A stretch of 64,000 bases of DNA from Siphonodentalium dalli (Eukaryota; Mollusca; Scaphopoda; Gadilida; Siphonodentaliidae), in the NCBI GenBank assembly GCA_032622095.1, contig CP136062.1:8893710-8957709 (forward strand), in the 5' to 3' direction. Below are positions 210 to 47,591 of this stretch, one piece after another. Position 1 is the stretch's first letter, and each line of letters opens with the position of its first letter. The notes beneath the pieces were generated by a model. It did no database searches and was not told where the DNA came from. It was given only the letters and a program-made list of their open reading frames with translations. The position numbers were made by a program, and so were the translations under genes.

Positions 210-661
210 GGTTACAAACAACTAATTATATAGAGTTACTCTTCTTGAATTTGTGTAGGGAAACTCGAGTCAGCATAAAAAAAAATTCTGGCTGCTGATT
301 GGTTGATTATCATTGAGGGAAATATCCCTAATCGGGAACAGAAAATCATAGCCTACGTAAATATGGCGATCGTGTATGTTTAGATGTCCAGGAAGAGTCT
401 GGTGGCGTCCAGAAGTTACGGAAGGGGTCTGGGTATTTTTATGCTGCTGATTTTTTTGCAGTAAATGGGGTAGTTGTGGAAATGCAAGATTATCGTTTGA
501 AAACAATACCGAAAAGGGCGCGTTTGTTGTCACATACTGGTGCAGAGGATGACGTTCTAAGGGAAAATTGACCACTTGAAGTTCAACTAGGTCAAACCCA
601 TGGCCGGCGGGACTTTTAGTTAACACTGTCGCCTATGGAAAATAATTAGTTGTGTGTAACC
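210..661 (+). mobile_element. MITE, 452 bp, complete
   Basis: The ends are inverted repeats: GGTTACAAACAACTAATTAT at 210-229 and its complement with one mismatch at 642-661 (19 of 20). TATA at 206-209 is repeated at 662-665, and MITE-free monomers have a single TATA there, so this is a filled site with a 4 bp target duplication (a TA duplication with slightly longer TIRs is also possible). No transposase is encoded. A 118-codon frame on the minus strand opens at GTG and looks fortuitous. I cannot assign a superfamily: a TA duplication would suit Tc1/mariner-like elements, TATA fits none clearly. Orientation is arbitrary. Confidence 0.88.
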
Positions 662-1170: not shown

Positions 1171-1346
1171 AGTCGGTTTTTACAAATTAAATTATGATGA
1201 AAAACCATGAATTTGGGGTGTGGTCACATTTGTGGTCATAATATCCCCATTAGTGAGTGGATGGACATGGGACATGCGACACTGTGCAGTATATATGTCT
1301 ATGACAAGCCTAACATGAGACATTAGTATCTTTTCTACTAAACTGC

Positions 1347-2231
1347 GCTTCCAGATTTATCAGGATTCTATTACTGGTGTTATTTCTTACCCCAAAAAAA
1401 TTGTTAATTTTAAAACGGGGTATGTGGGTTAAATGACCGCTGGGAGATAATAGGATGCCCAATGACTCCTATATTTCTATTGTATCACGGTAAAGCTTTT
1501 TTTGTAAAATTGGCGCGGTTTACACGATAAAACTGCAATTTACTTTTCAATTATAGGCAAAAAATTCACATTTTTCAAATATCGTTCAGGGCAGCGAATT
1601 TAGGAACACTGATAAACAAAAACTCACTCGTTTTGTTGAGTTATTATATTTTCACGCCCTACAGACCCATTTTCAGATTATGCGAGACATTTATTAACCC
1701 TCTGTCGCCGGAACTTCAACTTTTTCCGGAGGCGAAATTTTCTGAAAATCATCCATTTTGTGCATATGGGTGGACCTTTAATGTTCAAAATAGCACGGTC
1801 GAGGTGATGGAAGTTTCTCTGAGAGAAATTCGACTCAAACTCCTAAAAAGTACTAAAATTTAAAGGGACATCCGCCTATCATTGAACCAAACCATCATCG
1901 GATGGTGAAATTTTGAGGGGGGTGGTCTATTTCAAATGCAATTAAACATTGTATTGTTCAAAATTAGATAAATTCCTTAAAACGTATGGTTGATATACGT
2001 GACTAGTTTTCAAAACTTATACATATTACTTTCTATCGTGTGCGTTATGCACGCGAGTCGGTTTTTACAAATTAAATTATGATGAAAAACCATGAATTTG
2101 GGGTGTGGTCACATTTGTGGTCATAATATCCCCATTAGTGAATGGATGGACATGGGACATGCGACACTGTGCAGTATATATGTCTATGACAAGCCTAACA
2201 TGAGACATTAGTATCTTTTCTACTAAACTGC
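1347..2231 (+). repeat. S monomer, unit 2
   Basis: This 885 bp copy has an empty MITE site (single TATAGG, then CAAAAAATTC) and the interrupted G tract. It shares the AACAAAAACTC variant with the S units at 7965, 22979 and 25203, which all follow an L unit. A private change is GAATGG for GAGTGG near 2140. Confidence 0.95.
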
Positions 2232-3071
2232 GCTTCCAGATTTATCAGGATTCTATTACTGGTGTTATTTCTTACCCCAAAACAATTGTTAATTTTAAAA
2301 CGGGGTATGTGGGTTAAATGACCGCTGGGAGATAATAGGATGCCCAATGACTCCTATATTTCTATTGTATCACGGTAAAGCTTTTTTTGTAAAATTGGCG
2401 CGGTTTACACGATAAAACTGCAATTTACTTTTCAATTATAGGTTACAAACAACTAATTATATAGAGTTACTCTTCTTGAATTTGTGTAGGGATACTCGAG
2501 TCAGCATAAAAAAAAATTCTGGCTGCTGATTGGTTGATTATCATTGAGGGAAATATCCCTAATCGGGAACAGAAAATCATAGCCTACGTAAATATGGCGA
2601 TCGTGTATGTTTAGATGTCCAGGAAGAGTCTGGTGGCGTCCAGAAGTTACGGAAGGGGTCTGGGTATTTTTATGCTGCTGATTTTTTTGCAGTAAATTTA
2701 AAGGGACATCCGCCTATCATTGAACCAAACCATCATCGGATGGTGAAATTTTGAGGGGGGGGGTCTATTTCAAATGCAATTAAACATTGTATTGTTCAAA
2801 ATTAGATAAATTCCTTAAAACGTATATGGTTGATATACGTGACTAGTTTTCAAAACTTATACATATTACTTTCTATCGTGTGCGTTATGCACGCGAGTCG
2901 GTTTTTACAAATTAAACTATGATGAAAAACCATGAATTTGGGGTGTGGTCACATTTGTGGTCATAATATCCCCATTAGTGAGTGGATGGACATGGGACAT
3001 GCGACACTGTGCAGTATATATGTCTATGACAAGCCTAACATGAGACATTAGTATCTTTTCTACTAAACTGC
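2232..3071 (+). repeat. D monomer (internal deletion), unit 3
   Basis: This 840 bp copy holds the proximal monomer and the first 257 bp of the MITE (2441-2697), joined directly to the TTTAAAGGGACATCC segment. It has an extra AT (GTATATGGTTG, near 2824), shared only with the D unit at 10190, which links the two as copies of one ancestor. Confidence 0.95.
2441..2697 (+). mobile_element. MITE left fragment, 257 bp (D unit)
   Basis: The left TIR and internal sequence are present up to GCAGTAAAT; the right half and right TIR are gone. The breakpoint shares AAAT with the distal side (ACTAAAATTT), so four bases of microhomology mark the deletion. The remnant has one end only and could not transpose on its own. 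Confidence 0.92.
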
Positions 3072-6620: not shown

Positions 6621-7964
6621 GCTTCCAGATTTATCAGGATTCTATTACTGGTGTTATTTCTTACCCCAAAACAATTGTTAATTTTAAAACGGGGTATGTG
6701 GGTTAAATGACCGCTGGGAGATAATAGGATGCCCAATGACTCCTATATTTCTATTGTATCACGGTAAAGCTTTTTTTGTAAAATTGGCGCGGTTTACACG
6801 ATAAAACTGCAATTTACTTTTCAATTATAGGTTACAAACAACTAATTATATAGAGTTACTCTTCTTGAATTTGTGTAGGGAAACTCGAGTCAGCATAAAA
6901 AAAAATTCTGGCTGCTGATTGGTTGATTATCATTGAGGGAAATATCCCTAATCGGGAACAGAAAATCATAGCCTACGTAAATATGGCGATCGTGTATGTT
7001 TAGATGTCCAGGAAGAGTCTGGTGGCGTCCAGAAGTTACGGAAGGGGTCTGGGTATTTTTATGCTGCTGATTTTTTTGCAGTAAATGGGGTAGTTGTGGA
7101 AATGCAAGATTATCGTTTGAAAACAATACCGAAAAGGGCGCGTTTGTTGTCACATACTGGTGCAGAGGATGACGTTCTAAGGGAAAATTGACCACTTGAA
7201 GTTCAACTAGGTCAAACCCATGGCCGGCGGGACTTTTAGTTAACACTGTCGCCTATGGAAAATAATTAGTTGTGTGTAACCTATAGGCAAAAAATTCACA
7301 TTTTTCAAATATCGTTCAGGGCAGCGAATTTAGGAACACTGATAAACAAAGACTCACTCGTTTTGTTGAGTTATTATATTTTCACGCCCTACAGACCCAT
7401 TTTCAGATTATGCGAGACATTTATTAACCCTCTGTCGCCGGAACTTCAACTTTTTCCGGAGGCGAAATTTTCTGAAAATCATCCATTTTGTGCATATGGG
7501 TGGACCTTTAATGTTCAAAATAGCACGGTCGAGGTGATGGAAGTTTCTCTGAGAGAAATTCGACTCAAACTCCTAAAAAGTACTAAAATTTAAAGGGACA
7601 TCCGCCTATCATTGAACCAAACCATCATCGGATGGTGAAATTTTGAGGGGGGGGGGGGTCTAATTCAAATGCAATTAAACATTGTATTGTTCAAAATTAG
7701 ATAAATTCCTTAAAACGTATGGTTGATATACGTGACTAGTTTTCAAAACTTATACATATTACTTTCTATCGTGTGCGTTATGCACGCGAGTCGGTTTTTA
7801 CAAATTAAATTATGATGAAAAACCATGAATTTGGGGTGTGGTCACATTTGTGGTCATAATATCCCCATTAGTGAGTGGATGGACATGGGACATGCGACAC
7901 TGTGCAGTATATATGTCTATGACAAGCCTAACATGAGACATTAGTATCTTTTCTACTAAACTGC
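6621..7964 (+). repeat. L monomer, unit 8
   Basis: This 1344 bp copy has a complete MITE. A private change is TCTAATTC for TCTATTTC just after the G tract (near 7660). Its neighbours make it the counterpart of the L unit at 21638. Confidence 0.95.
6830..7281 (+). mobile_element. MITE, complete (L unit 8)
   Basis: It is 452 bp with both TIRs, flanked by TATA at 6826-6829 and 7282-7285. I see no difference from the 210-661 copy by eye, including GGGAAACTCGAG; the copies therefore spread as part of the monomer, not by separate transposition. Confidence 0.88.
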
Positions 7965-8849: not shown

Positions 8850-10189
8850 GCTTCCAGATTTATCAGGATTCTATTACTGGTGTTATTTCTTACCCCAAAA
8901 CAATTGTTAATTTTAGAACGGGGTATGTGGGTTAAATGACCGCTGGGAGATAATAGGATGCCCAATGACTCCTATATTTCTATTGTATCACGGTAAAGCT
9001 TTTTTTGTAAAATTGGCGCGGTTTACACGATAAAACTGCAATTTACTTTTCAATTATAGGTTACAAACAACTAATTATATAGAGTTACTCTTCTTGAATT
9101 TGTGTAGGGATACTCGAGTCAGCATAAAAAAAAATTCTGGCTGCTGATTGGTTGATTATCATTGAGGGAAATATCCCTAATCGGGAACAGAAAATCATAG
9201 CCTACGTAAATATGGCGATCGTGTATGTTTAGATGTCCAGGAAGAGTCTGGTGGCGTCCAGAAGTTACGGAAGGGGTCTGGGTATTTTTATGCTGCTGAT
9301 TTTTTTGCAGTAAATGGGGTAGTTGTGGAAATGCAAGATTATCGTTTGAAAACAATACCGAAAAGGGCGCGTTTGTTGTCACATACTGGTGCAGAGGATG
9401 ACGTTCTAAGGGAAAATTGACCACTTGAAGTTCAACTAGGTCAAACCCATGGCCGGCGGGACTTTTAGTTAACACTGTCGCCTATGGAAAATAATTAGTT
9501 GTGTGTAATCTATAGGCAAAAAATTCACATTTTTCAAATATCGTTCAGGGCAGCGAATTTAGGAACACTGATAAACAAAAACTCACTCGTTTTGTTGAGT
9601 TATTATATTTTCACGCCCTACAGACCCATTTTCAGATTATGCGAGACATTTATTAACCCTCTGTCGCCGGAACTTCAACTTTTTCCGGAGGCGAAATTTT
9701 CTGAAAATCATCCATTTTGTGCATATGGGTGGAACTTTAATGTTCAAAATAGCACGGTCGAGGTGATGGAAGTTTCTCTGAGAGAAATTCGACTCAAACT
9801 CCTAAAAGTACTAAAATTTAAAGGGACATCCGCCTATCATTGAACCAAACCATCATTGGATGGTGAAATTTTGAGGGGGGTGGTCTATTTCAAATGCAAT
9901 TAAACATTGTATTGTTCAAAATTAGATAAATTCCTTAAAACGTATGGTTGATATACGTGACTAGTTTTCAAAACTTATACATATTACTTTCTATCGTGTG
10001 CGTTATGCACGCGAGTCGGTTTTTACAAATTAAATTATGATGAAAAACCATGAATTTGGGGTGTGGTCACATTTGTGGTCATAATATCCCCATTAGTGAG
10101 TGGATGGACATGGGACATGCGACACTGTGCAGTATATATGTCTATGACAAACCTAACATGAGACATTAGTATCTTTTCTACTAAACTGC
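8850..10189 (+). repeat. L monomer, unit 10
   Basis: This 1340 bp copy has a complete MITE, an interrupted G tract (rare for L), TTTTAGAACG near 8912 and the shorter CCTAAAAGTAC that shifts the distal frame. The CATCATTGG loop variant is shared with the units at 22979 and 25203. Confidence 0.95.
9059..9510 (+). mobile_element. MITE, complete (L unit 10)
   Basis: It is 452 bp, flanked by TATA. The last bases read GTAATC for GTAACC, a change inside the right TIR, and it carries GGGATACTCGAG, shared with the copy at 24070 and the D fragments at 2441 and 62782. Confidence 0.87.
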
Positions 10190-11030
10190 GCTTCCAGATT
10201 TATCAGGATTCTATTACTGGTGTTATTTCTTACCCCAAAACAATTGTTAATTTTAAAACGGGGTATGTGGGTTAAATGACCGCTGGGAGATAATAGGATG
10301 CCCAATGACTCCTATATTTCTATTGTATCACGGTAAAGCTTTTTTTGTAAAATTGGCGCGGTTTACACGATAAAACTGCAATTTACTTTTCAATTATAGG
10401 TTACAAACAACTAATTATATAGAGTTACTCTTCTTGAATTTGTGTAGGGAAACTCGAGTCAGCATAAAAAAAAATTCTGGCTGCTGATTGGTTGATTATC
10501 ATTGAGGGAAATATCCCTAATCGGGAACAGAAAATCATAGCCTACGTAAATATGGCGATCGTGTATGTTTAGATGTCCAGGAAGAGTCTGGTGGCGTCCA
10601 GAAGTTACGGAAGGGGTCTGGGTATTTTTATGCTGCTGATTTTTTTGCAGTAAATTTAAAGGGACATCCGCCTATCATTGAACCAAACCATCATCGGATG
10701 GTGAAATTTTGAGGGGGGGGGGTCTATTTCAAATGCAATTAAACATTGTATTGTTCAAAATTAGATAAATTCCTTAAAACGTATATGGTTGATATACGTG
10801 ACTAGTTTTCAAAACTTATACATATTACTTTCTATCGTGTGCGTTATGCACGCGAGTCGGTTTTTACAAATTAAATTATGATGAAAAACCATGAATTTGG
10901 GGTGTGGTCACATTTGTGGTCATAATATCCCCATTAGTGAGTGGATGGACATGGGACATGCGACACTGTGCAGTATATATGTCTATGACAAGCCTAACAT
11001 GAGACATTAGTATCTTTTCTACTAAACTGC
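10190..11030 (+). repeat. D monomer, unit 11
   Basis: This 841 bp copy has the same deletion junction as unit 3 and shares its extra AT (GTATATGG). It precedes the monomer split by the foldback element. Confidence 0.95.
10399..10655 (+). mobile_element. MITE left fragment, 257 bp (D unit)
   Basis: It has the left TIR and internal sequence up to GCAGTAAAT, the same end point as all other D copies. It carries GGGAAACTCGAG. Confidence 0.92.
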
Positions 11031-11673: not shown

Positions 11674-13487
11674 TAGTCGGGGAGCCAATAAGGTCCACCT
11701 GCACCCCCCCCGATGATTACAAATAACCTTATTTGTATTGTTCCCTATGGTATCCAGATAAAGAATCCGGAATTCTCCGAAAAATAAAGGTGGCCCTACT
11801 AGGTGCTAGATCCATTTGAATCCAAGATGGCCGCCATTTCCTCTAATTCCGACCAGCTGTATTTAATCGTTGTAATAGATCGGTTGTTAGCAAAAGACAC
11901 AGACAAAATATATGCCATTTGTTGGTATGATGTCCTTCTTCAAAATGACGGCAAAAAATTTCGAAAAAAAATTCAAAATGGCCGCCGAAAAATGACGTCA
12001 TCTGCACGAAAATAGGAAATTTAATTAATATTTCACCATATCTTCCATTTTTCTTCACATTAATCATTAGTAAATGGCAATGTTTTTGAGACAGTCATCA
12101 AGCGTGATATTATAGCGTCATTTTAAGACATTTGCCATTGACGAGGGTTCCGTAATAGATACAGAAAGAGGATTTGAAAAAGAGGGGTAAAATTTTCGAT
12201 TTTTTGCAAGACGATTTTGATAGTCATTTTATCGACAAACCACACAGGCTGTTAATAGAATGTCAACAACTATGTGCTTTATTTTATTGGACGGATGTTT
12301 TACTTCAATGGGAATGAAATTGGTGTAGAAAATTTCCAAAATGGCCGCCAAAAATATGAAAAATGGTAAATATTGCCCCAGGGTGTCCTGCAATGGCTTA
12401 CAAGTTGTGGTTAATATATAAAATTGGCTAATCTGTATTATATACATTGCATACTAACATGTCTGATGCACCATGGATCATTGTTTCTATTGTCACCACT
12501 GACATCACCAGAAATATTGGATTTTTCTCTCACAAACTTGACATAAATTTCGACAAAAATTCACTTTTCAGGGTTGGACAATTGTTTTAAGTAAAATGCA
12601 ACTATCATTGGTATCAAAGGTATTTATTGTATTGGTCTATCTTAAATGTGTCACACTACGGTGTTTATAGACCAAATTGCTCAAGATGGCTTCCAAAATG
12701 GCAACCAAATTTGTAAAAAGTTAATTTTTTACATATATCCCGAACATTATTCTCTGCGTTATCCGACAAGGTAGTAAATTGTGACTCACTTGGTTATTGT
12801 ACGTGTTAGTTAATTAACTGACAACTACGTTCTATTATGTTTGTCCCAGTTCCGTATGGGGCATGACAAATTCATTTTAAAGTTGCAGTATGGAATTTTG
12901 CGGAGAACCTCTTTTGTGTTTCTTGCCATATTATTGAAAGGAAATGGGCAGAACTTTGAAACGGAACTGAGATGAACCATAATATGTGGCTATTCTGGTC
13001 CATTATGATAAAACATATCAACTGGATACACGGTGGATGCCAAGATGGTAGCCAGGGAGTTACTATATGGTCATAGATGAGGTGAATAGGTATACAGGGA
13101 GTTATTGTATGGTCAACGGTGAGATGAGTACATGTATGTATACAATTAGTGACTGTATGATCATAAATGTAATGAATAGCTATACAGGGAGTGACTAAAT
13201 GGTCATGTGTCAGGTGTATGAGTATACCCGGTGTTCCTGCTTGGTGACGTGTAGGTCATGTGTAGGTTATACGGGTATACACATGTGTTGCTATATGGTC
13301 ATGGGCGAGGGGTATTTGTATATAGCGAGCGGCTATATGGACATGGATGATGTGCATATGCATACATGGAGTGAATATACTGACATGGCTGGGGAGTATT
13401 AGTATATCTTGAGTGGCTATTCTGCTATGGTGTGACAAATAGGGATACGGGGAGTGACATGGCCAAGGGTGAGGTGAATATATATAC
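11674..13487 (+). repeat. Left arm of the foldback palindrome
   Basis: It is the inverted counterpart of 15132-16945. The outer 1.35 kb is unique sequence and the rest minisatellite. By eye I count roughly a dozen differences over the outer 1.35 kb, including the cytosine tract near 11702 (8 against 11). It has ATGGCCGCC at 11827, 11978 and 12341 and the palindrome TGACGTCA at 11993-12000. Frames of 70-74 codons here are not credible genes. Confidence 0.88.
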
Positions 13488-13960
13488 AATGATTGACCAT
13501 AATCATGTACGAATGTTTTGAATAGGTACACACGGTGTGACTATATGGCCATAGGTCAGATGAAGGAGTATACCAGGTGCCATGGGTGAGGGTATGTGTA
13601 TGAAGCGAGTGGCTATATGACCATTGGTGAGGTGGATATGTATACCCGGGGTGACTCTATGGTCATTGTTGTGGTGTTGATGTATATATTGAATGTCTAT
13701 TTGACCATGTGTGTGTGGAGAATAGGTATACATGGGATGACCGTATGGCCAATAGTGAGGTGAATGGGTATACAAGGAGTGACTCTATGGTTATGGGTCA
13801 TGTTTAGGATTATACCCGGTGTGACTGCATTGTGACTCATGGCTGTATGGCCATCCATGGTCATGGGTCAGGTGTACGTTTATACAGTTGGTCACTATAT
13901 TGTTATGTCTGTAGTGTTTATGTATATATGGAATGACTGTGTGGTAATGGGTGGCTATCG
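13068..13960 (+). repeat. Minisatellite, left tract (about 42 bp period)
   Basis: Diverged copies of a unit of about 42 bp, typified by GTATACAGGGAGTGACTATA followed by TGGTCATGGGTGAGGTGAAT. Because 42 is a multiple of three, long frames appear on both strands (rich in Tyr, His, Met and Ile); they are a by-product of the repeat. I estimate about 20 copies. Confidence 0.8.
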
Positions 13961-14078
13961 CTTTTCACGTTTAAAGTTCCCCCATGTACACAAACACTAT
14001 CATGGTGGAGAACTCTTTGATATGACCTCTCTATTGATTAACATATCCTTGCGTTATTGTGGAAAGCGATAGCCACCC
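13949..14078. other. Centre of the foldback: inner stem and 90 bp spacer
   Basis: GGGTGGCTATCGCTTTTCAC at 13949-13968 is complementary to 14059-14078 with one mismatch, enclosing a spacer at 13969-14058 with no inverted partner. The repeat consensus switches strand here, so this is the structural axis, though it is not the midpoint of the element. Confidence 0.75.
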
Positions 14079-15545
14079 AAATTACACATGTACAACCCAC
14101 CATGACCTCATATGTACATAAACACCACACAAATGACAATATAGTCACCCACTCTATACACATACACCTGACCATACAGCCATATTTGGTTATACTGGTA
14201 CATGCCACAAATGACGATACAGCCATGAGTCACCATGCATGAACACCAGGTATACTCCTACACCTGACCATATAGTCACTATGTGTATACATATTCACCA
14301 CATTCACGATCATAAAGTCACTCATTGTATACCTATTCACCTCACAGTGGACCATACAGCCACTACATGTATATCTATTCGCCATACCCATGACCATAGA
14401 GTCAATCCAGATATACATATACACCTCATCAATGGTGAGCCCTTCCAAATATACCAATACCCGCACACACGACCACTCATAAGTTTAATACTTGCATATA
14501 CACCTCGCACATGACAATTCAGCAACTCAATGTATACTTATACACGCCATCCATGATCATTCATCTACACCCTATACACCACCGATGATAATACATCCAC
14601 AACATATATCAATATACGACCCACCCGTTACCAAAAGGGCACTCCCTATATAGCCACAGGTATGCATATAACTTCAATCTTGACCGTACAGGCATACCAG
14701 GTGCACCTATACACATTACCCATAACCATAAAATCACTCCCTATTTATCTACGCACTCCATCCATGATCATACAGACAGCACAAATATACATATACACCC
14801 ACATGTCACAATACAGCCACACACGTACGGTACACATATACATCCCACCACGACATTACAGTCACTCCATATATACATAAACAACTCACAGATGACCATG
14901 TAGCTACTCTCGTTATATCTATACACCACAGCAATGCCCATACGGTCACAACGGCCACACACAACAATACACCGTACAGTCACTACATGTATACCGATTC
15001 ACCTCACACATGCCCATACAGCCACTCCTTATATTCCTATGCATCTCACCATGGACACCCCACTCATAACCATATAGTCACTCCTTGTATACATATTCAC
15101 ACCATTCATGCCCATACAGTAACTCCCTGTATATATATATTCACCTCACCCTTGGCCATGTCACTCCCCGTATCCCTATTGTCACACCATAGCAGAATAG
15201 CCACTCAAGATATACTAATACTCCCCAGCCATGTCAGTATATTCACTCCATGTATGCATATGCACATCATCCATGTCCATATAGCCGCTCGCTATATACA
15301 CATACCCCTCGCCCATGACCATATGGCAACACATGTGTATACCCGTATAACCTACACATGACCTACACGTCACCAATCAGGAACACCGGGTATACTCATA
15401 CACCTGACACATGACCATTTAGTCACTCCCTGTATAGCTATTCATTACATTTATGATCATACAGTCACTAATTGTATACATACATGTACTCATCTCACCG
15501 TTGACCATACAATAACTCCCTGTATACCTATTCACCTCACCTATG
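14070..15545 (-). repeat. Minisatellite, right tract (about 42 bp period)
   Basis: The complementary orientation of the left tract, about 35 copies of the 42 bp unit (for example from CCATATAG near 15071 to CCATACAG 42 bases on). It is about 0.6 kb longer than the left tract: outer repeats match in order, inner ones do not, so copy number changed after the palindrome formed. The 124-codon frame at 14987-15361 has a 14-residue period and is not a gene. Confidence 0.8.
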
Positions 15546-16945
15546 ATAATATAGTAAGTCCCTGGCTACCATCTTGGCATCCACCCTGTATCCAGTTGAT
15601 ATGTTTTATCATAATGGACCAGAATAGCCACATATTATGGTTCATCTCAGTTCCGTTTCAAAGTTCTGCCCATTTCCTTTCAATAATATGGCAAGAAACA
15701 CAAAAGAGGTTCTCCGCAAAATTCCATACTGCAACTTTAAAATGAATTTGTCATGCCCCATACGGAACTGGGACAAACATAATAGAACGTAGTTGTCAGT
15801 TAATTAACTAACACGTACAATAACCAAGTGAGTCACAATTTACTACCTTGTCGGATAACGCAGAGAATAATGTTCGGGATATATGTAAAAAATTAACTTT
15901 TTACAAATTTGGTTGCCATTTTGGAAGCCATCTTGAGCAATTTGGTCTATAAACACCGTAGTGTGACACATTTAAGATAGACCAATACAATAAATACCTT
16001 TGATACCAATGATAGTTGCATTTTACTTAAAACAATTGTCCAACCCTGAAAAGTGAATTTTTGTCGAAATTTATGTCAAGTTTGTGAGAGAAAAATCCAA
16101 TATTTCTGGTGATGTCAGTGGTGAAAATAGAAACAATGATCCATGGTGCATCAGACATGTTAGTATGCAATGTATATAATACAGATTAGCCAATTTTATA
16201 TATTAACCACAACTTGTAAGCCATTGCAGGACACCCTGGGGCAATATTTACCATTTTTCATATTTTCGGCGGCCATTTTGGAAATTTTCTACACCAATTT
16301 CATTCCCATTGAAGTAAAACATCCGTCCAATGAAATAGAGCACATAGTTGTTGACATTCTATTAACAGCCTGTGTGGTTTGTCGATAAAATGACTATCAA
16401 AATCGTCTTGCAAAAAATCGAAAATTTTACCCCTCTTTTTCAAATCCTCTTTCTGTATCTATTACGGAACCCTCGTCAATGGCAAATGTCTTAAAATGAC
16501 GCTATAATATCACGCTTGATGACTGTCTCAAAAACATTGCCATTTACTAATGATTAATGTGAAGAAAAATGGAAGATATGGTGAAATATTAATTAAATTT
16601 CCTATTTTCGTGCAGATGACGTCATTTTTCGGCGGCCATTTTGAATTTTTTTCGAAATTTTTTGCCGTCATTTTGAAGAAGGACATCATACCAACAAATG
16701 GCATATATTTTGTCTGTGTCTTTTGCTAACAACCGATCTATTACAACGATTAAATACAGCTGGTCGGAATTAGAGGAAATGGCGGCCATCTTGGATTCAA
16801 ATGGCTCTAGCACCTAGTAGGGCCACCTTTATTTTTCGGAGAATTCCGGATTCTTTATCTGGATACCATAGGGAACAATAAAAATAAGGTTATTTGTAAT
16901 CATCGGGGGGGGGGGTGCAGGTGGACCTTATTGGCTCCCCGACTA
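15132..16945 (-). repeat. Right arm of the foldback palindrome
   Basis: The reverse complement of the left arm. GGCGGCCAT (complement of ATGGCCGCC) occurs at 16268, 16631 and 16791 and TGACGTCA at 16617-16624, mirroring the left arm. The terminal G tract near 16905 has 11 bases against 8 in the left arm. Confidence 0.88.
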
Positions 16946-21637: not shown

Positions 21638-22978
21638 GCTTCCAGATTTATCAGGATTCTATTACTGGTGTTATTTCTTACCCCAAAACAATTGTTAATT
21701 TTAAAACGGGGTATGTGGGTTAAATGACCGCTGGGAGATAATAGGATGCCCAATGACTCCTATATTTCTATTGTATCACGGTAAAGCTTTTTTTGTAAAA
21801 TTGGCGCGGTTTACACGATAAAACTGCAATTTACTTTTCAATTATAGGTTACAAACAACTAATTATATAGAGTTACTCTTCTTGAATTTGTGTAGGGAAA
21901 CTCGAGTCAGCATAAAAAAAAATTCTGGCTGCTGATTGGTTGATTATCATTGAGGGAAATATCCCTAATCGGGAACAGAAAATCATAGCCTACGTAAATA
22001 TGGCGATCGTGTATGTTTAGATGTCCAGGAAGAGTCTGGTGGCGTCCAGAAGTTACGGAAGGGGTCTGGGTATTTTTATGCTGCTGATTTTTTTGCAGTA
22101 AATGGGGTAGTTGTGGAAATGCAAGATTATCGTTTGAAAACAATACCGAAAAGGGCGCGTTTGTTGTCACATACTGGTGCAGAGGATGACGTTCTAAGGG
22201 AAAATTGACCACTTGAAGTTCAACTAGGTCAAACCCATGGCCGGCGGGACTTTTAGTTAACACTGTCGCCTATGGAAAATAATTAGTTGTGTGTAACCTA
22301 TAGGCAAAAAATTCACATTTTTCAAATATCGTTCAGGGCAGCGAATTTAGGAACACTGATAAACAAAGACTCACTCGTTTTGTTGAGTTATTATATTTTC
22401 ACGCCCTACAGACCCATTTTCAGATTATGCGAGACATTTATTAACCCTCTGTCGCCGGAACTTCAACTTTTTCCGGAGGCGAAATTTTCTGAAAATCATC
22501 CATTTTGTGCATATGGGTGGACCTTTAATGTTCAAAATAGCACGGTCGAGGTGATGGAAGTTTCTCTGAGAGAAATTCGACTCAAACTCCTAAAAAGTAC
22601 TAAAATTTAAAGGGACATCCGCCTATCATTGAACCAAACCATCATCGGATGGTGAAATTTTGAGGGGGGGGGTCTATTTCAAATGCAATTAAACATTGTA
22701 TTGTTCAAAATTAGATAAATTCCTTAAAACGTATGGTTGATATACGTGACTAGTTTTCAAAACTTATACATATTACTTTCTATCGTGTGCGTTATGCACG
22801 CGAGTCGGTTTTTACAAATTAAATTATGATGAAAAACCATGAATTTGGGGTGTGGTCACATTTGTGGTCATAATATCCCCATTAGTGAGTGGATGGACAT
22901 GGGACATGCGACACTGTGCAGTATATATGTCTATGACAAGCCTAACATGAGACATTAGTATCTTTTCTACTAAACTGC
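21638..22978 (+). repeat. L monomer, unit 18
   Basis: This 1341 bp copy has a complete MITE and a short G tract of 9. It is the counterpart of the L unit at 6621, both being preceded by an S unit with TATAGGGAC. Confidence 0.95.
21847..22298 (+). mobile_element. MITE, complete (L unit 18)
   Basis: It is 452 bp with both TIRs and flanking TATA, with GGGAAACTCGAG. It is indistinguishable by eye from the 210-661 copy. Confidence 0.88.
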
Positions 22979-23860: not shown

Positions 23861-25202
23861 GCTTCCAGATTTATCAGGATTCTATTACTGGTGTTATTTC
23901 TTACCCCAAAACAATTGTTAATTTTAAAACGGGGTATGTGGGTTAAATGACCGCTGGGAGATAATAGGATGCCCAATGACTCCTATATTTCTATTGTATC
24001 ACGGTAAAGCTTTTTTTGTAAAATTGGCGCGGTTTACACGATAAAACTGCAATTTACTTTCCAATTATAGGTTTCAAACAACTAATTATATAGAGTTACT
24101 CTTCTTGAATTTGTGTAGGGATACTCGAGTCAGCATAAAAAAAAATTCTGGCTGCTGATTGGTTGATTATCATTGAGGGAAATATCCCTAATCGGGAACA
24201 GAAAATCATAGCCTACGTAAATATGGCGATCGTGTATGTTTAGATGTCCAGGAAGAGTCTGGTGGCGTCCAGAAGTTACGGAAGGGGTCTGGGTATTTTT
24301 ATGCTGCTGATTTTTTTGCAGTAAATGGGGTAGTTGTGGAAATGCAAGATTATCGTTTGAAAACAATACCGAAAAGGGCGCGTTTGTTGTCACATACTGG
24401 TGCAGAGGATGACGTTCTAAGGGAAAATTGACCACTTGAAGTTCAACTAGGTCAAACCCATGGCCGGCGGGACTTTTAGTTAACACTGTCGCCTATGGAA
24501 AATAATTAGTTGTGTGTAACCTATAGGCAAAAAATTCACATTTTTCAAATATCGTTCAGGGCAGCGAATTTAGGAACACTGATAAACAAAGACTCACTCG
24601 TTTTGTTGAGTTATTATATTTTCACGCCCTACAGACCCATTTTCAGATTATGCGAGACATTTATTAACCCTCTGTCGCCGGAACTTCAACTTTTTCCGGA
24701 GGCGAAATTTTCTGAAAATCATCCATTTTGTGCATATGGGTGGACCTTTAATGTTCAAAATAGCACGGTCGAGGTGATGGAAGTTTCTCTGAGAGAAATT
24801 CGACTCAAAATCCTAAAAAGTACTAAAATTTAAAGGGACATCCGCCTATCATTGAACCAAACCATCATCGGATGGTGAAATTTTGAGGGGGGGGGGTCTA
24901 TTTCAAATGCAATTAAACATTGTATTGTTCAAAATTAGATAAATTCCTTAAAACGTATGGTTGATATACGTGACTAGTTTTCAAAACTTATACATATTAC
25001 TTTCTATCGTGTGCGTTATGCACGCGAGTCGGTTTTTACAAATTAAATTATGATGAAAAACCATGAATTTGGGGTGTGGTCACATTTGTGGTCATAATAT
25101 CCCCATTAGTGAGTGGATGGACATGGGACATGCGACACTGTGCAGTATATATGTCTATGACAAGCCTAACATGAGACATTAGTATCTTTTCTACTAAACT
25201 GC
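23861..25202 (+). repeat. L monomer, unit 20
   Basis: This 1342 bp copy has a complete MITE. Private changes are TTTCCAATTATAG near 24060 and CAAAATCC for CAAACTCC near 24808. Confidence 0.95.
24070..24521 (+). mobile_element. MITE, complete (L unit 20)
   Basis: It is 452 bp. The left TIR reads GGTTTCAAAC for GGTTACAAAC. It carries GGGATACTCGAG like the copy at 9059. Confidence 0.87.
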
Positions 25203-26086: not shown

Positions 26087-26929
26087 GCTTCCAGATTTAT
26101 CAGGATTCTATTACTGGTGTTATTTCTTACCCCAAAACAATTGTTAATTTTAAAACGGGGTATGTGGGTTAAATGACCGCTGGGAGATAATAGGATGCCC
26201 AATGACTCCTATATTTCTATTGTATCACGGTAAAGCTTTTTTTGTAAAATTGGCGCGGTTTACACGATAAAACTGCAATTTACTTTTCAATTATAGGTTA
26301 CAAACAACTAATTATATAGAGTTACTCTTCTTGAATTTGTGTAGGGAAACTCGAGTCAGCATAAAAAAAAATTCTGGCTGCTGATTGGTTGATTATCATT
26401 GAGGGAAATATCCCTAATCGGGAACAGAAAATCATAGCCTACGTAAATATGGCGATCGTGTATGTTTAGATGTCCAGGAAGAGTCTGGTGGCGTCCAGAA
26501 GTTACGGAAGGGGTCTGGGTATTTTTATGCTGCTGATTTTTTTGCAGTAAATTTAAAGGGACATCCGCCTATCATTGAACCAAACCATCATCGGATGGTG
26601 AAATTTTGAGGGGGGGGGGGGGGTCTATTTCAAATGCAATTAAACATTGTATTGTTCAAAATTAGATAAATTCCTTAAAACGTATGGTTGATATACGTGA
26701 CTAGTTTTCAAAACTTATACATATTACTTTCTATCGTGTGCGTTATGCACGCGAGTCGGTTTTTACAAATTAAATTATGATGAAAAACCATGAATTTGGG
26801 GTGTGGTCACATTTGTGGTCATAATATCCCCATTAGTGAGTGGATGGACATGGGACATGCGACACTGTGCAGTATATATGTCTATGACAAGCCTAACATG
26901 AGACATTAGTATCTTTTCTACTAAACTGC
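26087..26929 (+). repeat. D monomer, unit 22
   Basis: This 843 bp copy has the standard D junction but lacks the extra AT of the D units at 2232 and 10190. Its G tract is 14 bases. Confidence 0.95.
26296..26552 (+). mobile_element. MITE left fragment, 257 bp (D unit)
   Basis: It has the left TIR through GCAGTAAAT, with GGGAAACTCGAG. Confidence 0.92.
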
Positions 26930-32472: not shown

Positions 32473-32729
32473 GGTTACAAACAACTAATTATATAGAGTT
32501 ACTCTTCTTGAATTTGTGTAGGGAAACTCGAGTCAGCATAAAAAAATATTCTGGCTGCTGATTGGTTGATTAACATTGAGGGAAATATCCCTAATCGGGA
32601 ACAGAAAATCATAGCCTACGTAAATATGGCGATCGTGTATGTTTAGATGTCCAGGAAGAGTCTGGTGGCGTCCAGAAGTTACGGAAGGGGTCTGGGTATT
32701 TTTATGCTGCTGATTTTTTTGCAGTAAAT
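32473..32729 (+). mobile_element. MITE left fragment, 257 bp (D unit)
   Basis: Standard 257 bp remnant with the ATATTCTGG and TTAACATT variants, shared only with the copy at 35931. Confidence 0.92.
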
Positions 32730-33314: not shown

Positions 33315-33571
33315 GGTTACAAACAACTAATTATATAGAGTTACTCTTCTTGAATTTGTGTAGGGAAACTCGAGTCAGCATAAAAAAAAATTCTGGCTGC
33401 TGATTGGTTGATTATCATTGAGGGAAATATCCCTAATCGGGAACAGAAAATCATAGCCTACGTAAATATGGCGATCGTGTATGTTTAGATGTCCAGGAAG
33501 AGTCTGGTGGCGTCCAGAAGTTACGGAAGGGGTCTGGGTATTTTTATGCTGCTGATTTTTTTGCAGTAAAT
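33315..33571 (+). mobile_element. MITE left fragment, 257 bp (D unit)
   Basis: Standard remnant with no variant seen against the copy at 36772. Confidence 0.92.
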
Positions 33572-35930: not shown

Positions 35931-36187
35931 GGTTACAAACAACTAATTATATAGAGTTACTCTTCTTGAATTTGTGTAGGGAAACTCGAGTCAGCATAAA
36001 AAAATATTCTGGCTGCTGATTGGTTGATTAACATTGAGGGAAATATCCCTAATCGGGAACAGAAAATCATAGCCTACGTAAATATGGCGATCGTGTATGT
36101 TTAGATGTCCAGGAAGAGTCTGGTGGCGTCCAGAAGTTACGGAAGGGGTCTGGGTATTTTTATGCTGCTGATTTTTTTGCAGTAAAT
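35931..36187 (+). mobile_element. MITE left fragment, 257 bp (D unit)
   Basis: The variant remnant (ATATTCTGG, TTAACATT), the pair of the copy at 32473. Confidence 0.92.
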
Positions 36188-36771: not shown

Positions 36772-37028
36772 GGTTACAAACAACTAATTATATAGAGTTA
36801 CTCTTCTTGAATTTGTGTAGGGAAACTCGAGTCAGCATAAAAAAAAATTCTGGCTGCTGATTGGTTGATTATCATTGAGGGAAATATCCCTAATCGGGAA
36901 CAGAAAATCATAGCCTACGTAAATATGGCGATCGTGTATGTTTAGATGTCCAGGAAGAGTCTGGTGGCGTCCAGAAGTTACGGAAGGGGTCTGGGTATTT
37001 TTATGCTGCTGATTTTTTTGCAGTAAAT
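36772..37028 (+). mobile_element. MITE left fragment, 257 bp (D unit)
   Basis: Standard remnant ending at GCAGTAAAT. Confidence 0.92.
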
Positions 37029-38295: not shown

Positions 38296-38874
38296 GCTTC
38301 CAGATTTATCAGGATTCTATTACTGGTGTTATTTCTTACCCCAAAAAAATTGTTAATTTTAAAACGGGGTATGTGGGTTAAATGACCGCTGGGAGATAAT
38401 AGGATGTCCAATGACTCCTATATTTCTATTGTATCACGGTAAAGCTTTTTTTGTAAAATTGGCGCGGTTTACACGATCAAACTTCAATTTTCTTTTCAAA
38501 TATATGTTACAAACAACTAATTATATATAGAGTTACTCTTCTTGAATTTGTGTAGGGAAACTCGAGTCAGCATAAAAAAAAATTCTGGCTGCTGATTGGT
38601 TGATTATCATTGAGGGAAATATCCCTAATCGGGAACAGAAAATCACTAGTTTTCAAAACTTATACATATTACTTTCTATCGTGTGCGTTATGCACGCGAG
38701 TCGGTTTTTACAAATTAAATTATGATGAAAAACCATGAATTTGGGGTGTGGTCACATTTGTGGTCATAATATCCCCATTAGTGAGTGGATGGACATGGGA
38801 CATGCGACACTGTGCAGTATATATGTCTATGACAAGCCTAACATGAGACATTAGTATCTTTTCTACTAAACTGC
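38296..38874 (+). repeat. Truncated 579 bp monomer with its own deletion
   Basis: The proximal part is L'-like (GATGTCCAATG, GATCAAACTTC, TATATATAGAG). A MITE fragment at 38505-38645 ends at AAAATCA and is joined to CTAGTTTTCAAAAC of the distal monomer. The 76-codon region, G tract and first hairpins are all missing. The junction occurs nowhere else in the window and shows at most one or two bases of microhomology, so it is separate from the D deletion. Confidence 0.93.
38505..38645 (+). mobile_element. MITE left fragment, 141 bp
   Basis: It starts TGTTACAAAC (first base T for G, as in the L' copies at 40854 and 42202) and stops at GAAAATCA. TATA precedes it. Confidence 0.9.
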
Positions 38875-40853: not shown

Positions 40854-41307
40854 TGTTACAAACAACTAATTATATATAGAGTTACTCTTCTTGAATTTGT
40901 GTAGGGAAACTCGAGTCAGCATAAAAAAAAATTCTGGCTGCTGATTGGTTGATTATCATTGAGGGAAATATCCCTAATCGGGAACAGAAAATCATAGCCT
41001 ACGTAAATATGGCGATCGTGTATGTTTAGATGTCCAGGAAGAGTCTGGTGCCGTCCAGAAGTTACGGAAGGGGTCTGGGTATTTTTATGCTGCTGATTTT
41101 TTTGCAGTAAATGGGGTAGTTGTGGAAATGCAAGATTATCGTTTGAAAAAAATACCGAAAAGGGCGCGTTTGTTGTCACATACTGGTGCAGAAGATGACG
41201 TTCTAAGGGAAAATTGACCACTTGAAGTTCAACTAGGTCAAACCCATGGCCGGCGGGACTTTTAGTTAACACTGTCGCCTATGGAAAATAATTAGTTGTG
41301 GGTAACC
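40854..41307 (+). mobile_element. MITE, complete (L' unit 39)
   Basis: It is 454 bp: the first base is T instead of G and TATATATAGAG has an extra TA. It bears the L' marks GTGCCGTCC, CAGAAGATGAC and GTGGGTAACC. Confidence 0.85.
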
Positions 41308-42201
41308 TATAGGCAAAAAAATCGCATTTTTCAAATATCGTTCAGGGCAGCGAATTTAGGAACACTGATAAACAAAGACTCACTCGTTTTGTTGAGTTAT
41401 TATATTTTCACGCCCTACAGACCCATTTTCAGATTATGCGAGACATTTATTAACCCTCTGTCGCCGGAACTTCAACTTTTTCCGGAGGCGAAATTTTCTG
41501 AAAATCATCCATTTTGTGCATCTGGGTGGACCTTTAATGTTCAAAATAGCACGATCGAGGTGATGGAAGTTTCTCTGATAGAAATTCGACTCAAACTCCT
41601 GAAAAGTACTGAAATTTAAAGGGACATCCGCCTATCATTGAACCAAACCATCATCGGATGGTGAAATTTTGAGGGGGGGGGGGGGGTCTATATCAAATGC
41701 AATTAAACATTGTATTGTTCAAAATTAGATAAATTCCTTAAAACGTATGGTAGATATACGTGACTAGTTTTCAAAACTTATACATATTACTTTCTATCGT
41801 GTGCGTTATGCACGCGAGTCGGTTTTTACAAATTAAATTATGATGAAAAACCCTGAATTTGGGGTGTGGTCACATTTGTGGTCATAATATCCCCACTAGT
41901 GAGTGGATGGACATTGGACATGCGACACTGTGCAGTATATATGTCTATGACAAGCCTAACATGAGACATTAGTATCTTTTCTACTAAACTGCGCTTCCAG
42001 ATTTATCAGGATTCTATTACTGGTGTTATTTCTTACCCCAAAAAAAATTTTAATTTTAAAACGGGGTATGTGGGTTAAATGACCGCTGGGAGATAATAGG
42101 ATGTCCAATGACTCCTATATTTCTATTGTATCACGGTAAAGCTTTTTTTGTAAAATTGGCGCGGTTTACACGATCAAACTTCAATTTTCTTTTCAAATAT
42201 A

Positions 42202-42656
42202 TGTTACAAACAACTAATTATATATAGAGTTACTCTTCTTGAATTTGTGTAGGGAAACTCGAGTCAGCATAAAAAAAAATTCTGGCTGCTGATTGGTTGA
42301 TTATCATTGAGGGAAATATCCCTAATCGGGAACAGAAAATCATAGCCTACGTAAATATGGCGATCGTGTATGTTTAGATGTCCAGGAAGAGTCTGGTGCC
42401 GTCCAGAAGTTACGGAAGGGGTCTGGGTATTTTTATGCTGCTGATTTTTTTTGCAGTAAATGGGGTAGTTGTGGAAATGCAAGATTATCGTTTGAAAAAA
42501 ATACCGAAAAGGGCGCGTTTGTTGTCACATACTGGTGCAGAAGATGACGTTCTAAGGGAAAATTGACCACTTGAAGTTCAACTAGGTCAAACCCATGGCC
42601 GGCGGGACTTTTAGTTAACACTGTCGCCTATGGAAAATAATTAGTTGTGGGTAACC
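42202..42656 (+). mobile_element. MITE, complete (L' unit 40)
   Basis: It is 455 bp: like the copy at 40854 plus one T in the tract before GCAGTAAATG, which splits the minus-strand frame seen in other copies. That frame is therefore not maintained. Confidence 0.85.
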
Positions 42657-43552
42657 TATAGGCAAAAAAATCACATTTTTCAAATATCGTTCAGGGCAGC
42701 GAATTTAGGAACACTGATAAACAAAGACTCACTCGTTTTGTTGAGTTATTATATTTTCACGCCCTACAGACCCATTTTCAGATTATGCGAGACATTTATT
42801 AACCCTCTGTCGCCGGAACTTCAACTTTTTCCGGAGGCGAAATTTTCTGAAAATCATCCATTTTGTGCATCTGGGTGGACCTTTAATGTTCAAAATAGCA
42901 CGATCGAGGTGATGGAAGTTTCTCTGATAGAAATTCGACTCAAACTCCTGAAAAGTACTGAAATTTAAAGGGACATCCGCCTATCATTGAACCAAACCAT
43001 CATCGGATGGTGAAATTTTGAGGGGGGGGGGGGGGGGTCTATATCAAATGCAATTAAACATTGTATTGTTCAAAATTAGATAAATTCCTTAAAACGTATG
43101 GTAGATATACGTGACTAGTTTTCAAAACTTATACATATTACTTTCTATCGTGTGCGTTATGCACGCGAGTCGGTTTTTACAAATTAAATTATGATGAAAA
43201 ACCCTGAATTTGGGGTGTGGTCACATTTGTGGTCATAATATCCCCACTAGTGAGTGGATGGACATTGGACATGCGACACTGTGCAGTATATATGTCTATG
43301 ACAAGCCTAACATGAGACATTAGTATCTTTTCTACTAAACTGCGCTTCCAGATTTATCAGGATTCTATTACTGGTGTTATTTCTTACCCCAAAAAAATTG
43401 TTAATTTTAAAACGGGGTATGTGGGTTAAATGACCGCTGGGAGATAATAGGATGTCCAATGACTCCTATATTTCTATTGTATCACGGTAAAGCTTTTTTT
43501 GTAAAATTGGCGCGGTTTACACGATCAAACTTCAATTTTCTTTTCAAATATA

Positions 43553-44004
43553 GGTTACAAACAACTAATTATATAGAGTTACTCTTCTTGAATTTGTGTA
43601 GGGAAACTCGAGTCAGCATAAAAAAAAATTCTGGCTGCTGATTGGTTGATTATCATTGAGGGAAATATCCCTAATCGGGAACAGAAAATCATAGCCTACG
43701 TAAATATGGCGATCGTGTATGTTTAGATGTCCAGGAAGAGTCTGGTGCCGTCCAGAAGTTACGGAAGGGGTCTGGGTATTTTTATGCTGCTGATTTTTTT
43801 GCAGTAAATGGGGTAGTTGTGGAAATGCAAGATTATCGTTTGAAAAAAATACCGAAAAGGGCGCGTTTGTTGTCACATACTGGTGCAGAAGATGACGTTC
43901 TAAGGGAAAATTGACCACTTGAAGTTCAACTAGGTCAAACCCATGGCCGGCGGGACTTTTAGTTAACACTGTCGCCTATGGAAAATAATTAGTTGTGGGT
44001 AACC
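43553..44004 (+). mobile_element. MITE, complete (L' unit 41)
   Basis: It is 452 bp with a restored GGTTAC start and no extra TA. The ATG-initiated monomer frame from 43459 runs through its left end and stops inside it at 43641. Confidence 0.86.
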
Positions 44005-44897
44005 TATAGGCAAAAAAATCACATTTTTCAAATATCGTTCAGGGCAGCGAATTTAGGAACACTGATAAACAAAGACTCACTCGTTTTGTTGAGTTATTAT
44101 ATTTTCACGCCCTACAGACCCATTTTCAGATTATGCGAGACATTTATTAACCCTCTGTCGCCGGAACTTCAACTTTTTCCGGAGGCGAAATTTTCTGAAA
44201 ATCATCCATTTTGTGCATCTGGGTGGACCTTTAATGTTCAAAATAGCACGATCGAGGTGATGGAAGTTTCTCTGATAGAAATTCGACTCAAACTCCTGAA
44301 AAGTACTGAAATTTAAAGGGACATCCGCCTATCATTGAACCAAACCATCATCGGGTGGTGAAATTTTGAGGGGGGGGGGGGGTCTATATCAAATGCAATT
44401 AAACATTGTATTGTTCAAAATTAGATAAATTCCTTAAAACGTATGGTAGATATACGTGACTAGTTTTCAAAACTTATACATATTACTTTCTATCGTGTGC
44501 GTTATGCACGCGAGTCGGTTTTTACAAATTAAATTATGATGAAAAACCCTGAATTTGGGGTGTGGTCACATTTGTGGTCATAATATCCCCACTAGTGAGT
44601 GGATGGACATTGGACATGCGACACTGTGCAGTATATATGTCTATGACAAGCCTAACATGAGACATTAGTATCTTTTCTATTAAACTGCGCTTCCAGATTT
44701 ATCAGGATTCTATTACTGGTGTTATTTCTTACCCCAAAAAAATTGTTAATTTTAAAACGGGGTATGTGGGTTAAATGACCGCTGGGAGATAATAGGATGT
44801 CCAATGACTCCTATATTTCTATTGTATCACGGTAAAGCTTTTTTTGTAAAATTGGCGCGGTTTACACGATCAAACTTCAATTTTCTTTTCAAATATA

Positions 44898-45349
44898 GGT
44901 TACAAACAACTAATTATATAGAGTTACTCTTCTTGAATTTGTGTAGGGAAACTCGAGTCAGCATAAAAAAAAATTCTGGCTGCTGATTGGTTGATTATCA
45001 TTGAGGGAAATATCCCTAATCGGGAACAGAAAATCATAGCCTACGTAAATATGGCGATCGTGTATGTTTAGATGTCCAGGAAGAGTCTGGTGCCGTCCAG
45101 AAGTTACGGAAGGGGTCTGGGTATTTTTATGCTGCTGATTTTTTTGCAGTAAATGGGGTAGTTGTGGAAATGCAAGATTATCGTTTGAAAAAAATACCGA
45201 AAAGGGCGCGTTTGTTGTCACATACTGGTGCAGAAGATGACGTTCTAAGGGAAAATTGACCACTTGAAGTTCAACTAGGTCAAACCCATGGCCGGCGGGA
45301 CTTTTAGTTAACACTGTCGCCTATGGAAAATAATTAGTTGTGGGTAACC
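44898..45349 (+). mobile_element. MITE, complete (L' unit 42)
   Basis: It is 452 bp and matches the copy at 43553 by eye. Confidence 0.86.
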
Positions 45350-46246
45350 TATAGGCAAAAAAATCACATTTTTCAAATATCGTTCAGGGCAGCGAATTTA
45401 GGAACACTGATAAACAAAGACTCACTCGTTTTGTTGAGTTATTATATTTTCACGCCCTACAGACCCATTTTCAGATTATGCGAGACATTTATTAACCCTC
45501 TGTCGCCGGAACTTCAACTTTTTCCGGAGGCGAAATTTTCTGAAAATCATCCATTTTGTGCATCTGGGTGGACCTTTAATGTTCAAAATAGCACGATCGA
45601 GGTGATGGAAGTTTCTCTGATAGAAATTCGACTCAAACTCCTGAAAAGTACTGAAATTTAAAGGGACATCCGCCTATCATTGAACCAAACCATCATCGGA
45701 TGGTGAAATTTTGAGGGGGGGGGGGGGGGGGTCTATATCAAATGCAATTAAACATTGTATTGTTCAAAATTAGATAAATTCCTTAAAACGTATGGTAGAT
45801 ATACGTGACTAGTTTTCAAAACTTATACATATTACTTTCTATCGTGTGCGTTATGCACGCGAGTCGGTTTTTACAAATTAAATTATGATGAAAAACCCTG
45901 AATTTGGGGTGTGGTCACATTTGTGGTCATAATATCCCCACTAGTGAGTGGATGGACATTGGACATGCGACACTGTGCAGTATATATGTCTATGACAAGC
46001 CTAACATGAGACATTAGTATCTTTTCTACTAAACTGCGCTTCCAGATTTATCAGGATTCTATTACTGGTGTTATTTCTTACCCCAAAAAAATTGTTAATT
46101 TTAAAACGGGGTATGTGGGTTAAATGACCGCTGGGAGATAATAGGATGTCCAATGACTCCTATATTTCTATTGTATCACGGTAAAGCTTTTTTTGTAAAA
46201 TTGGCGCGGTTTACACGATCAAACTTCAATTTTCTTTTCAAATATA

Positions 46247-46698
46247 GGTTACAAACAACTAATTATATAGAGTTACTCTTCTTGAATTTGTGTAGGGAAA
46301 CTCGAGTCAGCATAAAAAAAAATTCTGGCTGCTGATTGGTTGATTATCATTGAGGGAAATATCCCTAATCGGGAACAGAAAATCATAGCCTACGTAAATA
46401 TGGCGATCGTGTATGTTTAGATGTCCAGGAAGAGTCTGGTGCCGTCCAGAAGTTACGGAAGGGGTCTGGGTATTTTTATGCTGCTGATTTTTTTGCAGTA
46501 AATGGGGTAGTTGTGGAAATGCAAGATTATCGTTTGAAAAAAATACCGAAAAGGGCGCGTTTGTTGTCACATACTGGTGCAGAAGATGACGTTCTAAGGG
46601 AAAATTGACCACTTGAAGTTCAACTAGGTCAAACCCATGGCCGGCGGGACTTTTAGTTAACACTGTCGCCTATGGAAAATAATTAGTTGTGGGTAACC
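46247..46698 (+). mobile_element. MITE, complete (L' unit 43)
   Basis: It is 452 bp and matches the copy at 43553 by eye. Confidence 0.86.
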
Positions 46699-47591
46699 TA
46701 TAGGCAAAAAAATCACATTTTTCAAATATCGTTCAGGGCAGCGAATTTAGGAACACTGATAAACAAAGACTCACTCGTTTTGTTGAGTTATTATATTTTC
46801 ACGCCCTACAGACCCATTTTCAGATTATGCGAGACATTTATTAACCCTCTGTCGCCGGAACTTCAACTTTTTCCGGAGGCGAAATTTTCTGAAAATCATC
46901 CATTTTGTGCATCTGGGTGGACCTTTAATGTTCAAAATAGCACGATCGAGGTGATGGAAGTTTCTCTGATAGAAATTCGACTCAAACTCCTGAAAAGTAC
47001 TGAAATTTAAAGGGACATCCGCCTATCATTGAACCAAACCATCATCGGATGGTGAAATTTTGAGGGGGGGGGGGGGTCTATATCAAATGCAATTAAACAT
47101 TGTATTGTTCAAAATTAGATAAATTCCTTAAAACGTATGGTAGATATACGTGACTAGTTTTCAAAACTTATACATATTACTTTCTATCGTGTGCGTTATG
47201 CACGCGAGTCGGTTTTTACAAATTAAATTATGATGAAAAACCCTGAATTTGGGGTGTGGTCACATTTGTGGTCATAATATCCCCACTAGTGAGTGGATGG
47301 ACATTGGACATGCGACACTGTGCAGTATATATGTCTATGACAAGCCTAACATGAGACATTAGTATCTTTTCTACTAAACTGCGCTTCCAGATTTATCAGG
47401 ATTCTATTACTGGTGTTATTTCTTACCCCAAAAAAATTGTTAATTTTAAAACGGGGTATGTGGGTTAAATGACCGCTGGGAGATAATAGGATGTCCAATG
47501 ACTCCTATATTTCTATTGTATCACGGTAAAGCTTTTTTTGTAAAATTGGCGCGGTTTACACGATCAAACTTCAATTTTCTTTTCAAATATA

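Follow-up and report, generated by a model that had tools for sequence, protein, structure and literature searches.

Satellite segments bounded by complete copies of a 452-bp mobile element in Siphonodentalium dalli and their probable macrotransposition

The satellite array and its element E

The window analysed here is a stretch of 64,000 nucleotides (C2:8893710-8957709) from an assembly of 2.23 Gb in nine contigs, which could be searched genome-wide. It is occupied by a young head-to-tail satellite with a unit, S, of about 885 bp, and its whole length (1-64000, forward strand) lies within an array of about 194 kb (C2:8808522-9002288) whose outer limits are ends of the element E described below. 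Sequence of this array was read at its two limits and in the window, where BLAST of one reference unit against the window recovered 62 units or part units, mostly at about 99% identity and falling to about 97% in a block termed L'; such a long, homogeneous tandem array is typical of satellite DNA. The flanks of the 194-kb array, TATA and TGTA, are alike at three of four bases and form no exact duplication. The reference monomer of S (1346-2230, forward strand) is empty, that is, it carries a single TATA at unit positions 209-212 and no E. Differences in unit length are chiefly caused by a G run at S positions of about 570-580, the length of which is strongly variable. A search of the window against Rfam at gathering thresholds gave no match, and a Pfam search with two frames from the window, including one derived from E, returned nothing above the cut-off.

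The reference copy of E lies in an L unit at 210-661 (forward strand), is 452 bp long and has the ends GGTTACAAACAACTAATTAT and GGTTACACACAACTAATTAT, which match in inverted orientation at 19 of 20 positions, as the initial annotation had described, and at 23 of 24 when the flanking TATA is included. Recounting gave the same 12 complete and nine truncated copies as that annotation, all at the same TATA of the unit. The complete copies, on the forward strand, occupy 210-661, 6830-7281, 9059-9510 (ending in TC in place of CC), 21847-22298 and 24070-24521 (one change in the left inverted repeat), with seven further copies starting at 40854, 42202, 43553, 44898, 46247, 47592 and 48936; those at 40854 and 42202 have T as their first base and lengths of 454 and 455 bp. 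E is enclosed as TATA-E-TATA in filled units, and empty S units retain a single TATA at the same point, as had been claimed, with 40 exact empty junctions in the window; TATA on both sides, stated at first for the element in general, is found in 11 of the 12 complete copies and is missing on the right of the copy at 48936-49387. Eight of the nine fragments have a common breakpoint, E257/S511, E positions 1-257 being joined to S511 (an M unit) at 2441-2697 (forward strand) and in the same way at 10399-10655, 26296-26552, 32473-32729, 33315-33571, 35931-36187, 36772-37028 and 62782-63038. The remaining fragment (38505-38645, forward strand) stops at E139, is joined to S657 and has an L'-type left flank.

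E is thus short and non-coding with terminal inverted repeats, as in miniature inverted-repeat transposable elements (MITEs), and its copy number together with the copies elsewhere in the genome excludes chance. LTR retrotransposons and TRIMs have direct terminal repeats with TG...CA ends; direct repeats are present here, but the ends are GG...CC with long inverted repeats. A plasmid collection searched with E and viral contigs searched with two patterns gave no match.

The L' block (40854-49387, forward strand) consists of the last seven complete copies of E alternating with six L'-type bodies. At 49387/49388 the last base of the final E abuts ATGACTCC within an S unit, without TATA, and the simplest view is that this junction would mark the right-hand limit of an inserted block that has lost its left-hand one. 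L' and L are distinguished by 16 positions in the flanks and four in E; three of the flank differences recur in S38, at the edge of the block, and two in S35. Most of the 16 L' states are common to older blocks elsewhere, so that L' is no peculiarity of the window, and the S/L states are found elsewhere only in the C5:135-Mb, C5:244-Mb, C6 and C2:10.6-Mb copies, apart from one exception each at positions 190 and 453 among the C5:135-Mb bodies. In a tree of E, the L' copies group with those of loci L031, L036, L051, L052 and L034 (94/89). That E entered L and L' independently at one TATA was rated unlikely because the L' states recur in older E-carrying blocks.

A different insertion, of 5.3 kb and with inverted arms of about 2 kb that are 95.6% alike, occupies 11674-16945 in an S unit. 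It has TTA on each side, and CTTATGG is present in S alleles of the window, which fits a 3-bp duplication; diverged 42-bp tandem repeats lie within it at 14266-14425 and 15056-15138.

Copies of E, satellite blocks and a candidate transposase across the genome

Among the best 40 of 1846 candidates in the first DNA search, copies of E were full-length or nearly so and lay on C1, C2, C5 and C6. A search with the exact left end (23 exact letters, left ends without a preceding A), which favours young copies, gave 50 matches, seven of them within a satellite array. The remaining 43 comprised 22 that run into satellite, one of which (L081) was included because an S-S junction lies close by and its flank is also that of L044, and 21 that do not; counted by distinct flanks, the numbers were 18 and 20. 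Solo copies of E, such as that at C1:185056032 (AACT/AACT), had an exact 4-bp target duplication in 10 of the 17 cases with both ends readable and none in seven, four further copies being unreadable and outside the 17. Solo copy L046 lies within another copy of the window's inverted-arm element, and the window's own copy (11674-16945) shows that site unoccupied, with a single TAGT. Relatives of the solo E were 73-84% identical over the part read. E is therefore a mobile element with exactly these ends, dispersed, as MITEs are, with target duplications of constant length. The initial annotation had proposed a transposon insertion and had suggested looking for E outside the satellite, naming an absence of such copies, or ends that do not coincide, as grounds for abandoning the idea; the solo copies with the same ends and 4-bp duplications, one of them with its unoccupied site, mean that neither of these grounds applies.

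Outside the array, satellite also occurs in blocks (E-S-E, E-S-E-S-E, E-S-S-E and longer) whose limits are the outer ends of two E. A block on C6, for example, contains three E and two satellite bodies and is limited by the outer E bases between ATCT and ATCT, and one on C5, with four E and three bodies, is limited in the same manner between TACA and TACA. An exact 4-bp target duplication was present in all ten blocks with both flanks read (ATAT, TTCT, ATAT, AGAT, ATAT, TTAT, TCAT, AACT, ATCT and TACA); L036, L051, L052 and some further block starts, with the right flank unread, are outside this set. The ten comprise three E-S-E, four E-S-E-S-E, one with four E, one whose first E is truncated and one E-S-S-E, in which the first E carries an insert. 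Cross-pairing of the block flanks gave six matches in 90, and ten of ten was reached in none of 100000 trials with shuffled right flanks. A tandem repeat surrounds the C5 block, and a neighbouring unit of this repeat, 95% alike, represents the unoccupied site with a single TACA; such a site was seen for this one block. In ten of ten blocks the limits are set by the outward-facing ends of two E and accompanied by a single target duplication, which is the arrangement of a composite transposon or macrotransposon.

Within blocks, E is nearly uniform: four of the 11 blocks compared contain identical copies, and in the others the differences are mostly private to one copy, runs of A and gaps at E positions 50-55 and 71-74 being common to other lineages too. 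Copies of one block cluster in the E tree, in which many forks are weakly supported. Block L042 has two changes common to its second and third E and absent from the first, a pattern which fits a later local duplication and also a left-end E of other origin. Solo L046 and block start L086 have the same 12-base left flank, both in copies of the inverted-arm element, which shows that conversion from one form to the other can occur.

A search with the right end (right ends without a following T) gave 87 matches, among which outward pairs 4.9 kb apart were found on C9 and C6. These delimit structures of about 4.93 kb, E'-T-E', at C9:122249157-122254086 and C6:194437213-194442145, with ends like those of E and exact duplications in both cases (AACT on C9, AATT on C6). 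E' was read near the ends and at the inner junctions, the latter from C9 alone, where they read E'|TATAGCTACAG and GAGCTATA|E' with TATA adjoining E' at both. The C9 body, T, contains a frame of 607 amino acids, of which a 487-residue part matches PF20700, 'Mutator-like transposase' (E-value 3.4e-43), and a transposase frame lies at the C6 locus as well; E thereby has ends in common with a transposase-coding element, as expected of a MITE. A comparison of the transposase with solved structures at an E-value of 1 gave no match. Mutator (MULE) superfamily elements have target duplications of about 8-11 bp. The family of the transposase corresponds to that superfamily but the duplications at C9 and C6 are of 4 bp, and E'-T-E' is for that reason not filed as a member.

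Genome matches to the transposase numbered 89, of which 21 were almost full-length and stop-free with an identity of 95% or more; nine of the transposase copies lie on C7 at a spacing of about 4.48 kb and six on C5. At nine transposase loci, not all among the 21, hand comparison placed an E-type end at a distance of about 2.1-2.2 kb from the match start. Tandem arrays of transposase units occur at C7:202893750-202931064, C5:86807365-86842723, C1:248584081-248601257 and C6:97000530-97013587, and relatives about 60% and 52% identical are also tandem, for example at C3:153.39-153.48, C3:99.31, C6:79.18 and C6:135.96 Mb, which suggests a tendency to tandem growth throughout the enzyme family. The C1 and C6 arrays, with a period of 4.03 kb, were considered as T-T without E; this reading was dropped, as the matches there cover no more than 343 and 327 residues of the query and, by hand arithmetic, the length of the C1 array fits five shorter E-T units plus one E. 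Two other candidates were set aside, namely a 4.4-kb partner (L095 with L101) reached through the left inverted repeat, which is without a matching right end and without a long frame, and inverted pairs at C3:130.67 and 131.46 Mb, which on account of their mirror-image flanks are taken for inverted duplications and not for long elements.

Larger arrays raise the proposal that whole arrays are grown insertions. It stays a proposal in view of the match at three of four flank bases in the C2 array and of the situation on C4, where, 229 kb from a left end at 289735583 (TCAT), a right end on the same strand precedes TC, with other E ends between. At C2:33002753-33023572 nine copies of E lie exactly 2546 bp apart with another spacer, and the one E read there has the flanks AAAA and TTAT and no 4-bp duplication. 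Elsewhere, seventeen right ends followed by TG lie roughly 18-125 kb apart at C2:123.42-124.13 Mb, in a larger repeated segment carrying E. An array at L052 starts at C4:299181248, 42 kb before the contig end at 299223332, with S-S junctions to within 1 kb of that end, and is perhaps subtelomeric. Satellite units of opposite orientation meet at abrupt junctions at C2:10613500-10623400 (L025) and C5:131.19 Mb (L053).

Movement and history of the satellite

The explanation held to be probable, with good confidence and as read from the sequence of one assembly, is that a single transposase uses the ends of E, that satellite segments move as macrotransposons and that they then expand. In this mechanism E would be a double-ended mobile module of 452 bp, and the 'Mutator-like' transposase encoded by T would act on the satellite's E through the GGTTAC...GTAACC ends, making 4-bp target duplications. 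As E has the same orientation in every L unit, ends of different copies can be paired, and the enzyme would combine a left end from one E with a right end from an E further along and mobilize the whole intervening stretch, by cut-and-paste or by copying. E-S-E and longer blocks would seed new sites, which would presumably grow into arrays by unequal exchange. The ending of blocks in E, with their duplications, suggests one such route for the spread of the satellite. Points against it are the TATA/TGTA flanks of the C2 array, the seven of 17 solo copies without duplication, the changes of E in L042 and the AAAA/TTAT flanks at C2:33.0 Mb.

The initial annotation had the inserted element multiplying with its host monomer, which misses the main part, the travel of units between two E with duplications at ten of ten blocks. 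Taken alone, as one MITE insertion copied along with the array and dispersed by segmental duplication, that reading accounts for the constant position of E, always at one TATA, in the satellite units seen, and duplication does explain the flanks common to L070/L071/L072, to L078/L079 and to L044/L081; it is nevertheless highly improbable, given that 18 different flanks adjoin the outer E base exactly and that all ten blocks with both flanks read have the 4-bp duplication. Recombination of E-S circles or array ends into resident solo copies, the duplication being that of the old solo E, would yield the same outer ends and duplications and could draw on the L046/L086 pair and on the first E of L042, which lacks the two changes of the second and third. 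It predicts a mosaic outer E, however, whereas the copies in the 11 blocks are identical or carry mostly private changes and cluster by block as far as the weakly supported forks allow, and exact duplications are rarer in solo copies than in blocks (Fisher p 0.026, age uncontrolled). The uniformity of E speaks for block movement and is compatible with recombination between near-identical copies, which is considered unlikely overall.

A further alternative keeps movement as in the macrotransposition reading and differs from it in history alone. E-body-E would be the native form, with E as a terminal direct repeat and S as a non-coding body replacing T, solo E would be a collapse product like solo LTRs, and S-S would reflect loss of E at the TATA repeats. 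In its favour, TATA stands beside E at the limits of T (on C9) as well as of S, the C7 transposase period of 4.48 kb approximates 4.93 kb minus one E, and L046 and L086 represent solo and block forms at one target. It can also appeal to the age of most L' states and to the E-flanked bodies outside the window's clade. In a midpoint-rooted tree of 91 S bodies, 29 bodies with S on both sides lie in the clade that unites the window and the C5:135-Mb array, and older blocks are E-flanked, L044 excepted; the empty units in this young clade, together with the mostly older L' states, lean towards loss of E. A tree of monomers had been proposed at the outset as a check. A moving block must end in E, which biases the outgroups towards E-flanked bodies, and older-type S-S junctions are widespread, with 86 exact matches in the genome; of the 27 compared with left ends, 14 lie at most 23 kb behind one, at ten left ends. 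The tree was accordingly given up as proof of loss, and both unit types, filled and empty, are old. These 86 junctions and the S-S inside the old block L044 count against a native E-body-E, as do the solo relatives at 73-84% identity over the part read, which make E older than these blocks, and a comparison in which S had no similarity to the part of T read. This history is a serious possibility that is judged rather doubtful.

The macrotransposition reading can be extended into a joint picture, to which a little less than an even chance is given. It would define a class of transposons whose ends are complete two-ended modules in direct orientation at the body boundaries, the same ends moving the module alone, E'-T-E' or satellite segments of any length. 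The units would grow into arrays still bounded by E, the 194-kb array being the inside of one grown insertion, and satellite without E would be late.

Relation to known systems

By what route the units of a satellite come to occupy new chromosomal sites is a standing question. One genome here offers block sizes, ends, duplications, a candidate enzyme and a young array, and dispersal by a transposase thereby becomes directly testable. If the reading is true, the satellite would be a mobile element instead of passive freight, and the E spacers would mark which segments of an array can move.

The available text on several systems describes partial parallels. Xenopus miDNA4 (PMC12628747, PMC9659126) likewise links a MITE with a satellite whose arrays vary in copy number, but this Tc1/mariner-type element has its tandem repeats inside one MITE, whereas here whole MITEs alternate with and bound the units. 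The foldback element Tetris of Drosophila virilis (PMC4079207) is also a non-autonomous element with terminal inverted repeats that feeds a satellite; according to the part of that paper available, and unlike here, the satellite comes from repeats within the terminal inverted repeats and the target duplications are of 8-10 bp. Pearl-type MITEs of bivalves (PMC5139131) similarly tie dispersed satellite-like repeats to mobile elements, with short inner arrays in one element, and the accessible text describes no paired complete MITEs around satellite. In bacterial MITE-flanked integrons (PMC10969869), two MITEs surround a cargo and the enzyme is assumed to act in trans, as here, but the cargo is an integron, without satellite or tandem growth in the portion of the paper available. 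A literature search, in which subscription journals were sparsely covered, found no satellite moved between two complete MITEs.

The closest likeness is perhaps to the macrotransposons of maize Ac/Ds (PMC9910405), in which, in the available text, ends from two neighbouring elements act jointly and the intervening DNA is transposed, accompanied by a target duplication or a footprint, as is proposed here. In Ac/Ds, chromosomal DNA including an enhancer is carried and 8 bp are duplicated (PMC9910405), whereas in the present case the cargo is a satellite, ends are present in every L unit and the duplication is of 4 bp. As far as the accessible literature goes, composite transposons and macrotransposons are thus a known kind, for which a satellite as cargo is new.
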